Source of the DNA: Halobacteriovorax sp. JY17
GTDB taxonomy: Bacteria > Bdellovibrionota > Bacteriovoracia > Bacteriovoracales > Bacteriovoracaceae
NCBI RefSeq assembly: GCF_002753895.1
Contig: NZ_NJER01000001.1
Coordinates: forward strand, 744,001 to 808,000
Length of the DNA stretch: 64,000 nucleotides
Reading direction: 5' to 3'
The position numbers and the translations under genes were made by a program. How positions within the stretch are numbered: position 1 is the stretch's first letter; the number at the start of each line of letters is the position of its first letter. The notes under the pieces were generated by a model. The model saw only the letters and a program-made list of their open reading frames with translations, did no database searches and had not been told where the DNA came from. This document shows positions 1 to 35,332 of this stretch, piece by piece.

Positions 1-187
1 CTTTAGTTCTCCAAAGAACGAGCTTCTGTCCATTCAAGTAAGTACTTAAGACTTTTCCGGACTTTAATTCACTTGACTCACAGGCCACATACCAGCCCTT
101 GGTGACAATGTCCCAATTATTGAAAACCTTATGTTTTCTTACAGGTTGTGTTTGCTGATTAAATTCTGATGTTAATTTCTTTGGCAT
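1..187 (-). CDS. Rieske-type oxygenase, N-terminal part (cut by window edge)
   Basis: The minus strand reads an ATG at 187 and stays open to the window edge for 62 codons. The visible residues include FNNWDIVTKGWYVACESSEL, which aligns with FNNTEAIIEGWYWALQSSEL near the start of the complete Rieske protein encoded at 1956-3056. In Rieske oxygenases this N-terminal strand region precedes the [2Fe-2S] domain; the C-x-H and C-x2-H cluster ligands would lie beyond the edge and cannot be seen. The start is 50 bases after the stop of the ferritin-like gene on the same strand, so it is probably the fourth gene of that operon. Family assignment rests on the internal paralogue only; the role is unknown. 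Confidence 0.72.
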   Translation of the reverse strand, partial: MPKKLTSEFNQQTQPVRKHKVFNNWDIVTKGWYVACESSELKSGKVLSTYLNGQKLVLWRTK

Positions 188-237
188 AGTTAATTTTAAC
201 ATCTAATAAGAAACTAAAAAGGTAGGTAAAAAAAGAC

Positions 238-1150: not shown

Positions 1151-1963
1151 TTACTTCCCGTTTCTACCAACTGAAGAAATACCAAAGAGAGAGAAGATTC
1201 TCTGCTTTTGAATATCTACTAGTTTAGTATAAGACTTCTTCATTATTTTCATCTGATACTTAAATGGCATAGTCAAAGTCATACTTGCCAAGCAACATAA
1301 TTCATCGCCTCTTTGCCAATTTGGGTTTGTCGTATCAAAGAAGGCTACTCTCTTATTTTCGTCTTTTAGTTTACGAGTAATGGGCGCCACTCCAAATTTC
1401 AAAGAGTCCTTACTCTCCTCTTCTGGAAACTTAATCAGCCCTAGCTTTGAATCAAAGTTTTCAGGATACATAATCTTTGAAAATCCTTCTATTAATTCTC
1501 TTTTAAGTTCTGGTGTTTTCTCTTCATGCCTTGGCCAATGTTCATCAAAATTATTTGCCATAAGAAGATATGTTTTAAATCCTTTAGAAATGAGATACCA
1601 ATATAGTGGCGAAAATGGTCTCTTCAGTTTTTGAATGAAGAGATATTTAAGAAAGGCCACTCCTAGAGTTCCCTGTCCCCAGAATTCTTTTTCTATAATT
1701 GTATCTCCACTAAAAACACCACGGTGAGATTTTCCACCTTTAGAGATATAATCTAAATTTACAATCGTTGAAAATCCTCTAATTTTATTTTCTCTTCTAT
1801 CAAGTAGTAAGAAAGCTGTATCTTTTGAGATGAGATCCTTACAAAAAACATCATATGAAGAATTTGCATAATACTTCTCAAATACAGAGAACATCTCTCT
1901 TCTTTGAGATGGAGTAATATCTGAGACACTCACTGTAATTGAGTATAATTTATTCTTAGACAT
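1151..1963 (-). CDS. GNAT-like acyltransferase, putative
   Basis: A 270-residue soluble protein. Residues about 50-108 look like the acetyl-CoA-binding core of GNAT-fold acyltransferases: a strand with FLLLDRRENKIRGFSTI, then GVFSGDTIIEKEFWGQGTLG, where the W-G-Q-G stretch resembles the pyrophosphate-binding loop, followed by a helix. The C-terminal half has no motif I recognise. Its start overlaps the end of the Rieske gene by 8 bases and its stop lies 1 base before the next start, so the genes are very likely co-translated. The fold call is from pattern only; it could be an unrelated N-acyl amino acid synthase-like protein. The acyl acceptor is unknown. Confidence 0.5.
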   Translation of the reverse strand: MSKNKLYSITVSVSDITPSQRREMFSVFEKYYANSSYDVFCKDLISKDTAFLLLDRRENKIRGFSTIVNLDYISKGGKSHRGVFSGDTIIEKEFWGQGTLGVAFLKYLFIQKLKRPFSPLYWYLISKGFKTYLLMANNFDEHWPRHEEKTPELKRELIEGFSKIMYPENFDSKLGLIKFPEEESKDSLKFGVAPITRKLKDENKRVAFFDTTNPNWQRGDELCCLASMTLTMPFKYQMKIMKKSYTKLVDIQKQRIFSLFGISSVGRNGK

Positions 1964-3056
1964 TTCTCTTCTCCTCTTTAACTTTTATCTCACTTCTCTT
2001 TGGAATGATTGGTCCATTTTGAATTTCAATCATCTCTTCAATATTTTCATCAATAACTTTGCCATAGCCCCAGTCGCAAGTAGCTTGCTTTTCTGCATGC
2101 TGAATAAACTTTATAATGGCGTGGTCTTCGGCCAATGGGTGTTTAAAATTGAATTTAATAGTCTTAAAGACTTCAGTATCTCCTGCGGCGAAGTAATTAC
2201 CTACGATCTTTGTGGCAAATAGAAGGACTGAATTTACGATTTTTCCAAGTACACCTTTTCTCTTTTTAGTTATAAGAACTGTCTGCCCTTCGGCCTTTCC
2301 TTCCTTTGTACTTCTTATCGCGAACATAATATGAAAGTGTAGAAAGTCTGGACCAATAGTCACTGTTCCACTTGAGGCATTGAAGTAGCACATCGAATAC
2401 GTCAGAGCTCCTGCGTAGAACTTTCCAAGAAAACGAGTTAAGACATTCGTATCAGGCATTTTTGTTTCATTATTAAATTGAATTGTATTTGAATCAATAA
2501 TTCTAGGTTTTAAAAATAATTTTACGGGTAGATTATGGACGCTATAAAAGTGGTGAGCATCAATCGCGTTAATCATCATCACATTTGGGTGGCATTCTTT
2601 TACAAAGGGAGTTCCAAGAGTTGAATCAACTTCTTGATCTTCTAGTTCTGGTACAAAAGGAAGTTTTCTCTTGGCCTCACTTCCCGTCCAAATCCATATC
2701 AGTCCATACTTCTCTTCAACAGGAAAGTTTGGTTGCTTTACTTTTAATCCTACTTTATCTCTGCAAGGAATATCATTTAGATTTCCTTCGCTATCAAATT
2801 TCCAATGATGAAAGAAGCAGCGAACTTCATTGCCTTCCACTTTTCCTTCCGCAAGGTGAGCCCCCATATGCGGGCAGTGAGCAGATAGAGCTCTTACAAC
2901 TCCATCACTTCCTCTATAAACAGCTAAATCTTTTCCCATCAAATTAAGATGCTTGATTTTACCTTTCTTTAACTCGCTTGATTGTAAGGCCCAATACCAG
3001 CCTTCAATAATGGCCTCGGTATTATTAAATATTCTCGTCTTTGCTAGAACCGACAT
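1956..3056 (-). CDS. Rieske [2Fe-2S] non-heme iron oxygenase
   Basis: A 366-residue Rieske oxygenase alpha-subunit-like protein. The Rieske cluster ligands are C61-x-H63 (in CPHMGAH) and C80-x2-H83 (in CFFHHW). The mononuclear iron site is visible as D166-x2-H169-x4-H174. Members of this group (KshA, cholesterol 7-desaturase and relatives) use electrons from a reductase or ferredoxin to hydroxylate or desaturate lipophilic substrates. No reductase gene is adjacent. An AGAGGGA ribosome site precedes the ATG. It heads a minus-strand operon with a GNAT-like protein, a ferritin-like di-iron protein and a second Rieske protein. Enzyme class is firm; the substrate is not known. Confidence 0.85.
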   Translation of the reverse strand: MSVLAKTRIFNNTEAIIEGWYWALQSSELKKGKIKHLNLMGKDLAVYRGSDGVVRALSAHCPHMGAHLAEGKVEGNEVRCFFHHWKFDSEGNLNDIPCRDKVGLKVKQPNFPVEEKYGLIWIWTGSEAKRKLPFVPELEDQEVDSTLGTPFVKECHPNVMMINAIDAHHFYSVHNLPVKLFLKPRIIDSNTIQFNNETKMPDTNVLTRFLGKFYAGALTYSMCYFNASSGTVTIGPDFLHFHIMFAIRSTKEGKAEGQTVLITKKRKGVLGKIVNSVLLFATKIVGNYFAAGDTEVFKTIKFNFKHPLAEDHAIIKFIQHAEKQATCDWGYGKVIDENIEEMIEIQNGPIIPKRSEIKVKEEKRNV

Positions 3057-3181: not shown

Positions 3182-3242
3182 TCTGTTTAAATTATAAACA
3201 ATTTGCATAGAACAAGTAGATAATGGGTAAAGTTTAAACACT
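3182..3242 (+). repeat. copy A of a duplicated two-block upstream element
   Basis: Block 1 (3182-3209) matches 3888-3915 at 24 of 28 bases. Block 2 (3214-3242) matches 3938-3966 at about 23 of 29 bases. The blocks are 4 bases apart here and 22 bases apart in the other copy. Both copies lie upstream of plus-strand genes in the same order and orientation, which suggests a shared regulator site rather than a coding remnant. Confidence 0.6.
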
Positions 3243-3306
3243 AGAACAAGGCTTCTTAATCATTTTCTCTTACAGGTTTCAGAAGGTCTAGGTAATGAGT
3301 TACATC

Positions 3307-3335
3307 TTGAATTAATTCCTACATATTTATATAAT
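3307..3335 (+). promoter_or_regulatory. strong sigma70 promoter for the zinc-ribbon gene
   Basis: TTGAAT (3307-3312), a 17-base spacer and a perfect TATAAT (3330-3335). Transcription would start near 3343, leaving a leader of only about 14 bases that contains the ribosome site TAGGAG (3346-3351) before the ATG at 3357. Confidence 0.65.
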
Positions 3336-3356
3336 CATTAAAAATTAGGAGTATTT

Positions 3357-3770
3357 ATGAGTTTAAAAGATGCATTGCTAAAAGCTGGACTTAAGCCAAC
3401 TAAATCTCAGAATGAGAGAGAGTATAGGCCAAAGAAAGATATAAAGAAAAGTGAAGAACACCAAGCAACAAGAAACTTCTGCGAGGTCTGTGAGCTTATA
3501 CAACCCGATGTTGAGAGATTTGTTCATAAGAACCCTACTATTGATGCTGAATGGATTTGTAATAGATGTGCAGATAGAGCGGAAATACATGATCAATTCA
3601 GAATGACTAATCAGAGTGATGCCGCCAAGAAGAAATGCTACAGACGCGAATTTGGACCAACACAAGTTTTTTCAAATGATCCTAGAAAGTCAGGCATAAA
3701 GACAAAAGAAATCCAAAAGGAAGCCAAACATCAAATAAGTGATGACGGCGAGAAAAACTTTAACTGCTAA
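3357..3770 (+). CDS. small zinc-ribbon protein of unknown function
   Basis: A 137-residue, Lys- and Glu-rich protein with two Cys pairs, C42-x2-C45 (CEVC) and C68-x2-C71 (CNRC), that would bind one zinc. The N-terminus MSLKDALLKAGL followed by a basic stretch resembles the start of YaiL/DUF2058-type nucleic-acid-associated proteins, but the central zinc-ribbon is not part of that family as I know it. There is no signal peptide. It is monocistronic: a strong promoter lies directly upstream and a rho-independent terminator directly downstream. A regulatory or nucleic-acid-binding role is an inference from composition. Confidence 0.7.
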   Translation: MSLKDALLKAGLKPTKSQNEREYRPKKDIKKSEEHQATRNFCEVCELIQPDVERFVHKNPTIDAEWICNRCADRAEIHDQFRMTNQSDAAKKKCYRREFGPTQVFSNDPRKSGIKTKEIQKEAKHQISDDGEKNFNC

Positions 3771-3800
3771 GTATTAATTAACTACCTCTAAATGAAGACT

Positions 3801-3828
3801 GCTCCCTTTAAATGGGAGCTTTTTTATT
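3801..3828 (+). terminator. rho-independent terminator
   Basis: GCTCCC and GGGAGC form a 6-base stem around TTTAAAT, followed by TTTTTTATT. It lies 30 bases after the stop of the zinc-ribbon gene. Confidence 0.8.
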
Positions 3829-3887
3829 AGAAAGACAATAAGCTTTCCACCTCTCTTCTTCTCAATCTGACTCTAGCTCATTAACAA

Positions 3888-3966
3888 TCTGTATAAACTG
3901 TAAACAATTTACATATACATGCACGAGGGTGTCTAAAAAGTAGACAATAGGCAAAGACTAGACACT
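3888..3966 (+). repeat. copy B of the duplicated two-block upstream element
   Basis: Block 1 (3888-3915) contains the dyad TGTAAA-CAA-TTTACA. Between and across the blocks is TGTCTA-AAAAG-TAGACA (3930-3946), and TAGACAC recurs at 3959-3965 as an inverse of GTGTCTA at 3929-3935. The copy sits 168 bases before the beta-barrel gene at 4134. It looks like an operator array for a dimeric regulator. Confidence 0.6.
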
Positions 3967-4133
3967 CATCCCCTGAAAATCAGTACTATATCCAACTACT
4001 TAGAGCTCCTACCTAGAGGTAAAACTTGGAATCATTCTTGCTTATTAATAGCTATATAAAATAAATACAGCATCTTGCTCAACTTTACGCAATGTGTTAG
4101 AAAATCTTATCCAAAGCATTAGGGAAGGTTAAT

Positions 4134-5276
4134 ATGGCAAAGTATTCGAAGACATTATTAATGATGGCCCAGGGACTAGCACTAGTTTCCATGCCTATTA
4201 TTGCTAGTGAATCTACGAGTACTTCTAATCAGTCTAAGAAAAATAAAGATACTTCAGTGAAGATTAGTTTTGGACTCGGAGGAGTAAAGGCAGACAGTAC
4301 TCTTAATAAGGCCTCTGTTATGGGCGTTAATATTGGAGCTCTTTCTTCTCATAAACTAGCTAAAAATCTAAGTGTAAATATAGCAGGTGGAATGAATGTT
4401 CAAACAGGTTCAAGTACAACTGCAAGAGAAAATAATATTTATAAGCCAGGAAATAGTAACTACTTAAAAGAAGCAAAGATTACATATACACCATTTAATA
4501 TTTTAGATTTAGAAGCAGGTGTCATTAATCAAAGCGAACTAGATGCTCCCCTTCTTGTAGGTAATAAAGGTTTTATTGCTGCTAAAGAAGGTTTTAAATA
4601 CAAAGTTCTAGATACAAAGATAAGTGCGTTTGCGATGCAGGCGATTCCAAACAATAGAAATCTCTCACAGAGAATTGATGTTGAAGAAGATGGAGACCCT
4701 AGATTTTTCACTGAGACTCTAAGAATAGAACAAGAATTATTTGTTGGAGACATCACATTGAGTGCAAGTCACTTTGCTTTTAGTGACATCTCAAATGCCG
4801 TTGCTTATGAATCTATTCTTCTTGGAAATTCCGGTTCTCCAATCAATAAAGGTAACGGGGTTTTAAGTAATGATTATCAAGGGTGGCATTTAGCTGCAAA
4901 GTACTCTGCTAACATTAATAATAATATTAAAGTAAGTACAAAGTTTAATCACTTAACAAACTCTGGAGCAAGTAAAGATAATACTGGTTATATCGCAGCT
5001 CTTGGACTTGATTACACAAGAGATGCACACAGCTACTCTGTAGAGCTCGCAAATTTTAAGATAGAGTCAGACGCAGCTGTCGCCTACTATAACTCTTCAA
5101 AGTATGGACTTGCTAACAAGAAGGGATCGAAGATTCTTGTGGCCTATGATAACTCTCAGTCCAACTTAGGAGTTAGTGCCGAGGCCATTAAAAATAAAGT
5201 TATTAAAGAAAATATATATCAGTCAGACGAAACAATATTCATTCTAAGCTTAAGGAAACTCTATGATCTTTTCTAA
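4134..5276 (+). CDS. outer-membrane beta-barrel protein
   Basis: A 380-residue exported protein. The N-terminus has a basic start and a hydrophobic stretch, with likely signal peptidase cleavage after the Ala-Ser around IIASES. The rest is alternating polar and aromatic residues typical of amphipathic strands, and the chain ends in Phe (KLYDLF), the usual beta-barrel assembly signal. No named family was recognised. Its last 14 bases overlap the start of a 926-residue lipoprotein, and the ribosome site AAGGAA of that gene lies inside this frame, so the two are translationally coupled and probably work together at the outer membrane. The regulatory repeat copy B lies upstream. Confidence 0.7.
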   Translation: MAKYSKTLLMMAQGLALVSMPIIASESTSTSNQSKKNKDTSVKISFGLGGVKADSTLNKASVMGVNIGALSSHKLAKNLSVNIAGGMNVQTGSSTTARENNIYKPGNSNYLKEAKITYTPFNILDLEAGVINQSELDAPLLVGNKGFIAAKEGFKYKVLDTKISAFAMQAIPNNRNLSQRIDVEEDGDPRFFTETLRIEQELFVGDITLSASHFAFSDISNAVAYESILLGNSGSPINKGNGVLSNDYQGWHLAAKYSANINNNIKVSTKFNHLTNSGASKDNTGYIAALGLDYTRDAHSYSVELANFKIESDAAVAYYNSSKYGLANKKGSKILVAYDNSQSNLGVSAEAIKNKVIKENIYQSDETIFILSLRKLYDLF

Positions 5277-8043
5277 GAGAATCGCTTCTCTAATTCTTAT
5301 TGCGACTCTAGCGGCAAGTTGTTCGTTCGGGGTAAAAGATAAGAAAGAAAATTCAAACACCAATGCTCTCCAATTGAATTCATTTTCAAAAGTGAGTACT
5401 GAGAACCTTATTTCTGCAACGAGTGGTGCAAACCAAGCTGTAGAAGATGTACGTTTTACTCTTAGAGCGTGCCTTAAAGATCCTACAGGAGTTAGAAACC
5501 TTAACTCTAAGGCCGTTACTATCTCAGGAATTGCAGGAAACCTAGCCACTGACGCTAGCGGATGTGTTACATGGTCAGAAATTCAAAAAGTTAATTATTC
5601 TAAAGTTATTAACTGTTCAGAACAAACAAGAACACTTTCAATACCAACAGAGGGAACTAGCCTTATTTTAAAGTACTCTATGGACCCAACAAAGTCAGCT
5701 TTTACTGATTTAACTAAGCCTGGTTCAAAGGGATGTCAAAATGAAGGAAACTCGGCCCTTACAAAGAACGATATAGAATCAAAGCTTATTCTTGATGAAG
5801 TAAAACTCATGATCAAAGCAAATTCAACAATTCAAAGAAGAAGTGATACTAAATTCCAAGAATATCAAATGGAATTCTCTTCGTGTGTTTATGCAAGAAG
5901 TACAGAAGCTCCAATCAAAAATAGAAATATTGAAGTAACTTTCGAAATTCCTGAGATTGAAGAAACAACAACACTAACAGTAGAAACAAATCACAAAGGT
6001 TGTTTCAAATATAGAACTAATACAAAGTATGAGCAGCACAATTACTCGCACTGGATGAACGGAAAGTTTACGGCCAAAGTCCTAGAAGGACCACTGGCCG
6101 AAGAGTCTGTCGTTACGGGCCTCCTTATGAATCCATGGGATAATGACCTTGTTGACGAGAGATTTGGAAAGTCTGAAGAAAATCCAATCAAAGAGTCTAA
6201 TAGATTTCAAATTAATGGTGTGATGTATATCTTAATTGGTAACAATGTAGACAACTTTAGTGTTAATGAGCACTTAAACTTAACTGTATCTAAAACATAC
6301 CAAGTAGTTCTAAACCCAAGAATTGATAGAGGACATAGATTTAACACGCCAAGGTTCTCAGATGTTGAAGAAGGTAAGTTCAAGCTTAAATTTATGATTC
6401 TTGCTCCTAATAAAGCAGAAATGGAAATTGATAAGAACAACTTTGACAACTTCACTTACATTACAGGTGCAGAAAAAGAAGTTGAAGTGATAAATGGAAC
6501 AATAAACACACTTATTGATCTTCCAATTAAAGTATCAGATATGCCTAGAATGGCACTTAGAACTGTTTCAGTTTTTAAACTTGAGCCAATTGATAAAGAA
6601 ATTGGTTTAAGACAAAGAGTTGTAACAGGTTTCTTTAAGGCGAAGATCCCTTGGATTAAAACCAACGTAATGAGTAATGAAGCATTAAATGAAAATACAA
6701 TGGACTCTCCGGCGTCAAGATATACTCCAGAGGCCCACAAAACAACGACAGGAAAAGTGAATAATAGTATTCTTGACGGAGAAGTGAACTCTTCAGATTT
6801 CTTTGATGTAGAAAATTTAACTGATGTGGAAAAGTCTGAAACAGATATTAAAGCTCTTCAATTTAAGAATTATATTGATTACTTATTTGATAATTTAAAT
6901 CTCTTCACGGAGAAGAGGGCCTTTACAACTAAGTTTAAGCAAAGCTCAAAAGATATTTTTATTTCGCAAAAGCAAGCTTCAATAGAGAAATTTAACTACC
7001 TATCGGTAAAAGAAGCTGAGTCACTCTTAAAGACAAATAAGTTAGAGAATAGACTAATTTATATAGCGAAAGAGAAAAGTAAAACAGGAAAACTAAATCT
7101 TCTTAGCAGTGGTAAGACGCAAGAAGAGAGAGATTCGTTTAAGAAATCTCTTTGCCTACTCGCTCTTGGAGAGGGCAATTCCTACGAAACGAATTTTATC
7201 GGAAGAAAGAGACCTTCTGCAGAGCTTAATGGCTGTATAAAGAATCCACTTGCCTATATGGGTCTTGATGTAAAAAGGCACGTAGATAGCGTTGAAAAAG
7301 TAAATCCTAGATACTCAAATGGATTTAACTTCTCAGTTGGGTCAAGATTTTCAATCTATGAAGGACAAAGTGAGTCAGAATATACAAGTATAAGGTCAGG
7401 TATAGATGCTGCTATAAAAATTCCTTTTGGTGAATTCTTTGGCCTTGGGGTTAGACTCTTTGATATTTCAAAAGGTGTTAACTATAGTGATTACGAAAAC
7501 CAATCTTTTGGAGACGATGTTTCTGAAAGTAAATCAATTGGTGTAGAGAAATTTACAGTTGGAGTAACTGCTAATTACAATCACTGCTTACTTATTTCTC
7601 CAAGAGAATATAAAGTTACTGCTCACACAACTAATTCATATATGTATGGAGGTAGTTATGCAGGGAAGAAGGCCACGACTTTTGAAGGTAAGACATTCTA
7701 TGTATGTTCAAGACCTTTTGAAGATACAATTGATGAAAACTGGTATTACCTACAGTCATTTACTTCTGGAACAAGCTACTTTAGAGATTCATTTGGTCCA
7801 ACAGAGATTAAGTTAATCAAAGTTATCAGAGGCTACAAGAATTACTTAAAGTTTAGAGATGCTCTTAGAGACGAGACAAAGCAATATCTCTATGTTGATG
7901 CTGCAGGAATAGAGACTCCAGACAATAAAGTATTCAATAACTGGAAACACTTAATGGATGATTCTGAAAATCAGTCTAAAGGTGAACTCGTAGACATGGT
8001 TATTGATAACGTCGAAGGATCACTGCCAGGAACTATGGAATAA
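5263..8043 (+). CDS. large lipoprotein of unknown function
   Basis: A 926-residue protein with a lipoprotein signal peptide: a hydrophobic stretch then LAASC with Cys20 as the lipidated residue. The early mature region has Cys residues spaced as if for disulphides (RACLKDP, SGCVTW, INCSEQ, KGCQNE), which fits periplasmic or surface exposure. The middle is rich in predicted beta structure and the last 200 residues contain aromatic-rich segments such as NWYYLQSF. I recognise no catalytic motif. It is coupled to the upstream beta-barrel gene by a 14-base overlap. A similar barrel-then-giant-lipoprotein layout recurs at 51812-56610, where the lipoprotein is a metallopeptidase. Function unknown. 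Confidence 0.7.
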   Translation: MIFSKRIASLILIATLAASCSFGVKDKKENSNTNALQLNSFSKVSTENLISATSGANQAVEDVRFTLRACLKDPTGVRNLNSKAVTISGIAGNLATDASGCVTWSEIQKVNYSKVINCSEQTRTLSIPTEGTSLILKYSMDPTKSAFTDLTKPGSKGCQNEGNSALTKNDIESKLILDEVKLMIKANSTIQRRSDTKFQEYQMEFSSCVYARSTEAPIKNRNIEVTFEIPEIEETTTLTVETNHKGCFKYRTNTKYEQHNYSHWMNGKFTAKVLEGPLAEESVVTGLLMNPWDNDLVDERFGKSEENPIKESNRFQINGVMYILIGNNVDNFSVNEHLNLTVSKTYQVVLNPRIDRGHRFNTPRFSDVEEGKFKLKFMILAPNKAEMEIDKNNFDNFTYITGAEKEVEVINGTINTLIDLPIKVSDMPRMALRTVSVFKLEPIDKEIGLRQRVVTGFFKAKIPWIKTNVMSNEALNENTMDSPASRYTPEAHKTTTGKVNNSILDGEVNSSDFFDVENLTDVEKSETDIKALQFKNYIDYLFDNLNLFTEKRAFTTKFKQSSKDIFISQKQASIEKFNYLSVKEAESLLKTNKLENRLIYIAKEKSKTGKLNLLSSGKTQEERDSFKKSLCLLALGEGNSYETNFIGRKRPSAELNGCIKNPLAYMGLDVKRHVDSVEKVNPRYSNGFNFSVGSRFSIYEGQSESEYTSIRSGIDAAIKIPFGEFFGLGVRLFDISKGVNYSDYENQSFGDDVSESKSIGVEKFTVGVTANYNHCLLISPREYKVTAHTTNSYMYGGSYAGKKATTFEGKTFYVCSRPFEDTIDENWYYLQSFTSGTSYFRDSFGPTEIKLIKVIRGYKNYLKFRDALRDETKQYLYVDAAGIETPDNKVFNNWKHLMDDSENQSKGELVDMVIDNVEGSLPGTME

Positions 8044-8090: not shown

Positions 8091-8309
8091 ATGAAAATCA
8101 TCACACTCATCTCCACTTTAATTCTTATAACTTCCTGTGCTCAATCGCAGACTGAAGTCAGTGCAAGAAAAGTTAAAAAAGAAGAAATCAACACCTGTGT
8201 CTGCATGGAGATCTACAGCCCAGTATGCGGAAGAGATGGGAAAACCTATGGGAACGCCTGTGAAGCTAGGTGCCAAAAAGTAAGATTCACTCCCGGAGAA
8301 TGTAGATAG
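8091..8309 (+). CDS. Kazal-type protease inhibitor lipoprotein
   Basis: A 72-residue lipoprotein. The signal ends in ITSC with Cys16 lipidated. The mature part contains six Cys in the Kazal order C-x-C-x7-C-x10-C-x3-C-x9-C with the family core YSPVCGRDGKTYGNAC. Kazal domains bind serine proteases through the loop after the second Cys. Anchored to a membrane, the protein could shield the cell from its own secreted proteases or from those of prey; this role is an inference. It has its own promoter inside an inverted repeat, 47 bases after the large lipoprotein gene. Family assignment is firm. Confidence 0.9.
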   Translation: MKIITLISTLILITSCAQSQTEVSARKVKKEEINTCVCMEIYSPVCGRDGKTYGNACEARCQKVRFTPGECR

Positions 8310-34693: not shown

Positions 34694-35332
34694 ATGACTA
34701 TTCAAGATTTTCTAAAAAAGAAACAAGAGAAATTGGCAGAGAAAACAAAGTCAAAGAAGAAAGATTTTAGGGCCAAATGCGAAGAAATCTTAGAACAAAT
34801 TAAAAGCTACAATGAAGAAAAACATAGCGAGTTATTAAACACTTTTAAAGTGCGCTACGATAAAGTGAATATTCAAAAGAAGAAGATTCTTGGTTTCTAC
34901 GGACAGCTAGTAAACGAGTTAAAGTCTCTAAGAGAACAAGCTGGTGAAAGTATTCTAACAACTCCAGTAGTTAAGAAGGCTAAGTCGACAATTAAAGATG
35001 TGAAAAAACAAAAAGCTAGCTTGGAAAAGAAAGTTGATAAAGTTGTAAAATCAACAAAGAGAAAAGTAACTGAAGCAGTAAAGAAAGTTGAAAAAGCAGT
35101 AGAAGATGTTGCAGATAAAGAAAAGACGGCGAAGAAGAAAGTCACAAAGAAAGCTACTGCGGCAAAGAAGAAGGTCGCGAAAAAGGCCACTGTTGCCAAG
35201 AAGAAAGTTGCAAAAAAGGCCACTGTTGCCAAGAAGAAAGTCGCAAAGAAAGCTACTGTGGCAAAGAAGAAGGTCGCGAAAAAGGCCACTGTTGCCAAGA
35301 AGAAAGTTACGAAGAAAACGTCTAAGAAATAA
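34694..35332 (+). CDS. histone H1-like DNA-binding protein with Lys/Ala repeats
   Basis: A 212-residue highly basic protein. The N-terminal 100 residues are charged and helical, likely coiled-coil (KKKQEKLAEKTKSKKK). From about residue 146 the chain consists of five repeats of the 11-residue unit [11 protein letters not shown] and a partial sixth, ending TKKTSKK. Such Lys-Ala-Val tails are found in AlgP, Hc1 and other bacterial H1-like proteins that compact DNA. The ATG at 34694 is chosen because AAAGGA is at the right distance; the in-frame ATG at 34688 is too close to it. A very condensed nucleoid is known in the attack phase of Bdellovibrio-type predators, which suits this protein. Confidence 0.8.
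   Translation: MTIQDFLKKKQEKLAEKTKSKKKDFRAKCEEILEQIKSYNEEKHSELLNTFKVRYDKVNIQKKKILGFYGQLVNELKSLREQAGESILTTPVVKKAKSTIKDVKKQKASLEKKVDKVVKSTKRKVTEAVKKVEKAVEDVADKEKTAKKKVTKKATAAKKKVAKKATVAKKKVAKKATVAKKKVAKKATVAKKKVAKKATVAKKKVTKKTSKK
35129..35325 (+). repeat. 33-base tandem repeats with a 99-base higher-order unit
   Basis: Six 33-base units lie in frame in the histone-like gene, the last diverging. Units 2 (35162-35194) and 5 (35261-35293) are identical, and units 1 and 4 are nearly identical, so units 1-3 look like a 99-base block duplicated as units 4-6. The repeat number may vary between strains. Confidence 0.8.

Follow-up and report, generated by a model that had tools for sequence, protein, structure and literature searches.

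NtrC sites have the form TGCACC-(A/T)4T-GGTGCA (PMC4987338), while FleQ boxes read GTCAAT-NN-ATTGAC, with GxC ends, and Fis has a loose binding consensus of 15 nucleotides (PMC10723142). In the predatory relative Bdellovibrio bacteriovorus, most attack-phase genes are controlled from promoters with a sigma-28 consensus (PMC3627812). Sigma-54 has been proposed as a controller of the bacterial exterior, comprising surface and exported molecules (Francke et al. 2011, PMC3162934), and a text search of that paper found no mention of Bdellovibrio. A search of the literature on sigma-54 in Halobacteriovorax, Bacteriovorax and Bdellovibrio, with most subscription journals outside its reach, did not find the motif and regulon examined here described.

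The window, which is the whole stretch of 64,000 nucleotides analysed from the genome of Halobacteriovorax sp. JY17 (G000, 3.47 Mb), contains two copies of a repeated element, copies A and B. We consider it probable (roughly 0.8, judged from sequence) that both are enhancer arrays for a bacterial enhancer-binding protein (bEBP), an NtrC-type activator with a Fis-type helix-turn-helix (HTH) acting at sigma-54 promoters. A first-pass annotation had recognised a regulatory repeat here, a view that we share, and had found no family of sites to match it; in geometry, it corresponds to NtrC/Fis-type enhancer sites beside sigma-54 promoters. As it had reported, the first blocks of the two copies agree at 24 of 28 bases (3182–3209 and 3888–3915) and the second blocks at 23 of 29 (3214–3242 and 3938–3966), and copy B contains both TGTAAA-N3-TTTACA and TGTCTA-N5-TAGACA. 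The best 28-mer match in 500 dinucleotide-preserving shuffles of both intergenic regions was 22 or fewer, compared with the 24 of the real sequences. The elements are also conserved in the near relatives G001 and G004.

Further dyads were found in both copies, namely TGTTTA-N5-TAAACA in copy A (3184–3200) and TGTATA-N5-TAAACA (3890–3906) and TGTCTA-N5-TAGACA (3930–3946) in copy B. The array unit in each copy is a 17-bp dyad, TGTNTA-N5-TANACA, for which the consensus is TGTCTA-N5-TAGACA and the core TGTCTAAA-N-TTTAGACA. Because the dyads recur across both copies, the unit is one 17-bp 6-N5-6 site and not two unrelated blocks. The sites of copy A are off-consensus. The first, S1 (TGTTTAAATTATAAACA, 3184–3200), fits TGTNTA-N5-TANACA exactly, with T instead of C at position 4, and the second, TGGGTAAAGTTTAAACA (3224–3240), is degenerate and closely resembles the second site of G001 in the alignment. 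Copy B has three sites: S1 (TGTATAAACTGTAAACA, 3890–3906), S2 (TGTCTAAAAAGTAGACA, 3930–3946), which is an exact consensus, and S3 (TAGGCAAAGACTAGACA, 3948–3964), in which the left half is degenerate.

The first-pass annotation had treated the blocks as separate, independently spaced sites, and this did not hold up: a single dyad is repeated, and its spacings are conserved. The second site begins 40 bp after the first in both copies (3184 to 3224 and 3890 to 3930), and this exact step indicates that site spacing is preserved rather than free. The difference between the spacers of 4 and 22 bp is 18 bp, as large as the step from S2 to S3 in copy B, and the pairing of the second blocks is an 18-bp shift by one repeat period. 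At an offset of 724 these blocks match at 23 of 29 bases, far above the 14 of 29 at an offset of 706, and in the 724 register a lone half-site in copy A, TAGATA (3217–3222, + strand), pairs with the right half of S2 in copy B. Elsewhere in the window, perfect 33-bp direct repeats lie in Lys/Ala-rich coding-like sequence (35161–35310).

When the sites were aligned, a sigma-54 -24/-12 element, TTGGCAC-N5-TTGCT, was seen downstream of many of them. Promoters were scored against TGGCAY-N5-TTGCW, with the invariant GG and GC 10 bp apart and a score of at least 11/14, and the orientation was not chosen. A direction facing a gene within 300 bp was counted as gene-ward and one facing no gene as away-facing. 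A sigma-54 promoter was found in 45 of 100 gene-ward directions compared with 0 of 44 away-facing ones, and about half of the gene-ward directions have no recognisable sigma-54 promoter, many of these pointing at whichever gene of a divergent pair is not the target. When each site was given a single direction, 38 of 72 oriented sites had a promoter; the opposite strand gave 4, and the number to be expected by shuffling was 1.8. In the JY17 genome, 11 sites have a sigma-54 promoter 30–81 bp downstream, and copies A and B are among them. RpoN is encoded there (Sigma54_DBD, G000:C1:1593842-1594318, E=1.5e-65), and sigma-54 is present in 56 of the 59 genomes.

The distances from site to promoter are not evenly spread; they cluster at 39–42, 49–52, 56–60, 68–71 and 80–81 bp. 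Their period is 9.8 bp (R=0.60), a value reached by none of 20,000 random sets, and a period of 10.0 bp (p=0.002) persists after removal of the 39–42 cluster. The phasing is also seen outside the genus (n=29), where p=0.017 when the 39–42 group is left out. Phasing of this kind is expected if a bound protein has to touch the polymerase on one face of the helix, and the natural gaps, with their period of 9.8–10 bp, have the face-of-helix arrangement of bEBP upstream activating sites. The linkage of a dyad to a sigma-54 promoter likewise has the geometry that such sites would show.

Chance matches across the genome, against which the first-pass annotation had cautioned, are few. The strict dyad TGTCTA-N5-TAGACA occurs 5 times in the JY17 genome and its reversed pattern not at all, and the relaxed pattern occurs 13 times compared with 4 for its reverse. 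Over 37 genomes of the family there are 119 exact sites against 8 for the reversed pattern, and outside the family the dyad is sparse, except in a small number of genomes, for example G046 (8 sites). A search allowing two mismatches from the consensus showed no enrichment (182 compared with 230 for the reversed pattern), so that sites are informative only when they match exactly or almost exactly. Of the 74 exact sites inspected, a simple ORF call places 69 in intergenic sequence, and many lie 50–130 bp before genes that start with signal peptides or lipoboxes. In a simple and crude hydropathy test that used neighbours in the same stretches as comparison genes, 91% of the downstream genes with a sigma-54 promoter had a hydrophobic N-terminus compared with 58% of other genes; when all targets are taken together, the two groups differ modestly (74% compared with 58%, p=0.024). 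A unit of site and promoter that recurs across the Bacteriovoracaceae, in most cases ahead of genes encoding exported proteins and lipoproteins, points to a family-wide sigma-54 regulon.

Not all sites have this partner. At six loci in relatives (L076, L078, L091, L102, L118 and L119) the sites precede sigma-28-like CCGATAA promoters and not sigma-54 promoters. Promoters of the TAAA-N15-CCGATAA type account for about six of the 100 gene-ward directions in relatives, and most sites do not have one as a partner. The possibility that the consensus is itself a sigma-28 -35 box (TAAAGTTT) was considered and rejected as a general explanation, only about six sites having a sigma-28 -10 element. Sigma-28-like promoters are not expected to be opened by a bEBP, short perfect dyads are also typical of repressors and no bEBP has been tied to this dyad, observations that would suit a regulator of another kind, either a repressor or a co-activator, used at both the sigma-54 and the sigma-28 promoters of exported-protein genes. 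We think this unlikely, given the strong association of the dyad with sigma-54 promoters and the helical phasing of the gap. Some bEBPs, including FleQ, act at more than one promoter class, and the sigma-28 cases thus do not exclude a bEBP, but suggest that the binder may act at other promoter classes too.

Copy B appears to serve the barrel/lipoprotein operon, as the first-pass annotation had supposed. A predicted sigma-54 promoter (TGGAATCATTCTTGCT, 4027–4042, + strand, score 12.5/14), which is identical in G004 and reads TGGAATGGATATTGCT in G001, lies before the gene for a 380-aa exported protein (4134–5276, + strand), a predicted barrel with a signal-peptide-like N-terminus and the likely target of copy B. 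The second gene of the operon is an overlapping ORF for a 926-aa lipoprotein (5263–8043, + strand) with the lipobox-like sequence LAASCS. The 380-aa protein had no Pfam or NCBIfam match, and a scan of the genome collection using it gave no matches. The gap from S1 to this promoter measures 120 bp in both G000 and G004 and 119 bp in G001, and the gaps from S2 (80 bp) and S3 (62 bp) are the same in all three. In G002 and G003, sigma-54-like elements are present at the barrel orthologues, but an array is not clearly recognisable. The operon is followed by the gene for a small Kazal-type protease-inhibitor lipoprotein (window 8091–8309, + strand), which is kept in G001.

The sides bearing A and B resemble paralogous copies, or counterparts of the one shared array that is seen in G001, and the similarity could in principle reflect no more than a decayed duplication of a promoter region that has no function. 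This is extremely improbable, as the dyad recurs at unrelated promoters both genome-wide and family-wide and the site-to-promoter gaps are conserved in three species.

For copy A, the first-pass annotation had named as the target a zinc-ribbon-like protein with CxxC pairs (3357–3770, + strand), encoded between the two arrays. It had no Pfam, NCBIfam or PDB match. Copy A does lie about 117 bp upstream of the start codon, but we found no site upstream of any zinc-ribbon orthologue examined and no strong plus-strand sigma-54 promoter between copy A and the gene. The gene has its own sigma-70-like promoter, TTGAAT-N17-TATAAT (3307–3335, + strand), which aligns with the upstream region of the array-free orthologue in G004. 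Regulation of this gene by copy A is therefore very improbable, and, of the two targets proposed as co-regulated, the barrel-lipoprotein operon stands while the zinc-ribbon gene probably does not. Besides its full zinc-ribbon gene, G004 has a partial second one (matching residues 45–137, G004:C4:124883-125161, L104) approximately 1.5 kb away.

Most likely, on the arrangement of the sequence, copy A serves the divergent Rieske operon instead. The operon is preceded by a putative sigma-54 promoter, TGGCAC-N5-CTGCT (TGGCACGATTCCTGCT, 3126–3111, − strand, score 13/14), which reads TGGCACGATTTCTGCT in G001, and S1 of copy A is 57 bp upstream of it here and 58 bp in G001. The first gene encodes a Rieske-domain protein (1956–3056, − strand; PF00355, E=9.4e-24). 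A 270-aa ORF without a Pfam match (1151–1963, − strand) overlaps its end and is likely to be in the same operon, as is the gene for a ferritin-like protein (238–1149, − strand), for which the PF13668 match is weak (E=0.00028, 21.5 bits, below the curated cut-off of 24.7). A second Rieske-type paralogue is found at the left edge of the window (2–202, − strand) and runs left to G000:C1:743141. The minus-strand cluster (Rieske, ferritin-like, 270-aa, Rieske) is collinear in G001 (L105).

In this sister genome the zinc-ribbon gene is absent and a single array lies between the Rieske and barrel promoters, the remaining neighbourhood being collinear, and the Rieske promoter and the array have thus been kept together where there is no zinc-ribbon gene. 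Two histories would fit: the zinc-ribbon gene may have arrived, with duplication of the array, or recombination between two arrays may have removed it from G001. Under both, the best assignment of array A is to the Rieske side. In G030, a Rieske orthologue that is not linked (66% identity) has a site with two mismatches and, separated from it by 41 bp, a sigma-54 promoter. At the Rieske orthologue in G004, no good site and no sigma-54 promoter could be recognised.

The JY17 genome was examined for candidate activators. Nine strong matches to AAA+ proteins of the sigma-54 activator type were found, six of them with a GAFTGA-type loop on inspection of the sequence. The AAA+ proteins at C1:1540428, C3:105150 and C1:1089646 had no GAFTGA loop by eye, and the activator at C3:339715 varied too much within the family to make a good candidate. 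An activator beside flgB/flgC/fliE (L157), within L231 (G000:C3:96000-115500), is without a GAFTGA loop and is unlikely to act with sigma-54. The NtrC-like regulator of this genome shares 97% identity with a regulator from a Bacteriovoracaceae genome and 92% with one from Halobacteriovorax marinus. The leading candidates are a FleQ-like regulator (G000:C3:108597-110108) and a kinase-linked NtrC regulator (C3:504722-506215); a third, C3:416246, is near-universal. When orthologues were scanned for signs of autoregulation, no convincing site was found upstream of the two candidate activators covered.

We give the FleQ-like regulator a little less than an even chance of being the activator in preference to the kinase-linked one. 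Its HTH is the closest to that of FleQ (RTTLIEKM compared with RTTLVEKM), and the GxC ends of the FleQ box are in its favour. Motif sites number 1.12 per Mb in family genomes with the FleQ-like gene and 0.43 per Mb in those without (p=0.005, uncorrected for phylogeny). However, the gene adjoins flagellar genes and may encode a flagellar regulator, in which case its loss may merely track the loss of motility. Family genomes without it still hold some motif sites, and G012 has the gene but no exact sites. The C3:504722-506215 and C3:416246 regulators are present in nearly all genomes. The former has an HTH that is nearly invariant across the phylum and adjoins a gene for a membrane histidine kinase, of which the kinase half was matched and the N-terminus reads as CHASE2-type.

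Under the enhancer reading, a dimeric bEBP with a Fis-type HTH would bind the TGTCTAAA-N-TTTAGACA sites, one dimer per dyad, and assemble on the arrays. The inner 15 bp of the dyad would suit the Fis-type HTH of NtrC-type activators. From the correct face of the helix, typically 40–80 bp away, the bEBP would contact RNA polymerase-sigma-54 at the -24/-12 promoter and use ATP to open the promoter complex, with copy B acting on the barrel/lipoprotein operon and copy A on the divergent Rieske operon. The motif, its enrichment and intergenic placement, the linked promoters, their phasing and the conservation in G001 and G004 are read from the genomes themselves; from these we infer binding by a bEBP, its probable identity and activation by it, activation being favoured over repression because the sigma-54 class of promoter needs an activator.

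For the study of gene control in this largely predatory family, the results supply a motif usable in searches, a class of promoter and a list of targets; they also replace the zinc-ribbon gene by the Rieske operon as the probable target of copy A. The evolved gap distances also amount to a natural helical-phasing experiment for short-range sigma-54 activation. It is possible, though doubtful, that one dedicated sigma-54 activator at phase-locked TGTCTA sites governs a large part of the proteins that the Bacteriovoracaceae export and so serves as a switch for predation or the envelope, which would parallel the sigma-28 attack-phase regulon of Bdellovibrio. In that predatory relative, too, a global promoter class, the FliA (sigma-28) regulon, controls proteases and surface proteins, but it uses the sigma-28 consensus, whereas the dominant pair here is the dyad with a sigma-54 promoter. 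The exported-protein targets also fit the predicted link between sigma-54 and the exterior, a claim that was general and comparative (PMC3162934).

Among the individual sites, the Pseudomonas FleQ boxes share the GTC...GAC ends and an A/T centre, and the JY17 genome encodes a bEBP whose HTH closely resembles that of FleQ. Their GTCAAT-NN-ATTGAC core is of 14 bp, whereas the GTCTA-N5-TAGAC core here is of 15 bp, and c-di-GMP and the partner FleN belong to the FleQ side, with no evidence of either here. The enteric NtrC enhancers are similar in being 17-bp dyads, with five mostly A/T bases separating the two 6-bp halves, and in lying upstream of sigma-54 promoters. They differ in their TGCAC half-sites, the half-site here being TGTCTA, and the sites described here are promoter-proximal (mostly 40–80 bp), phase-locked and directed mostly at exported-protein targets.
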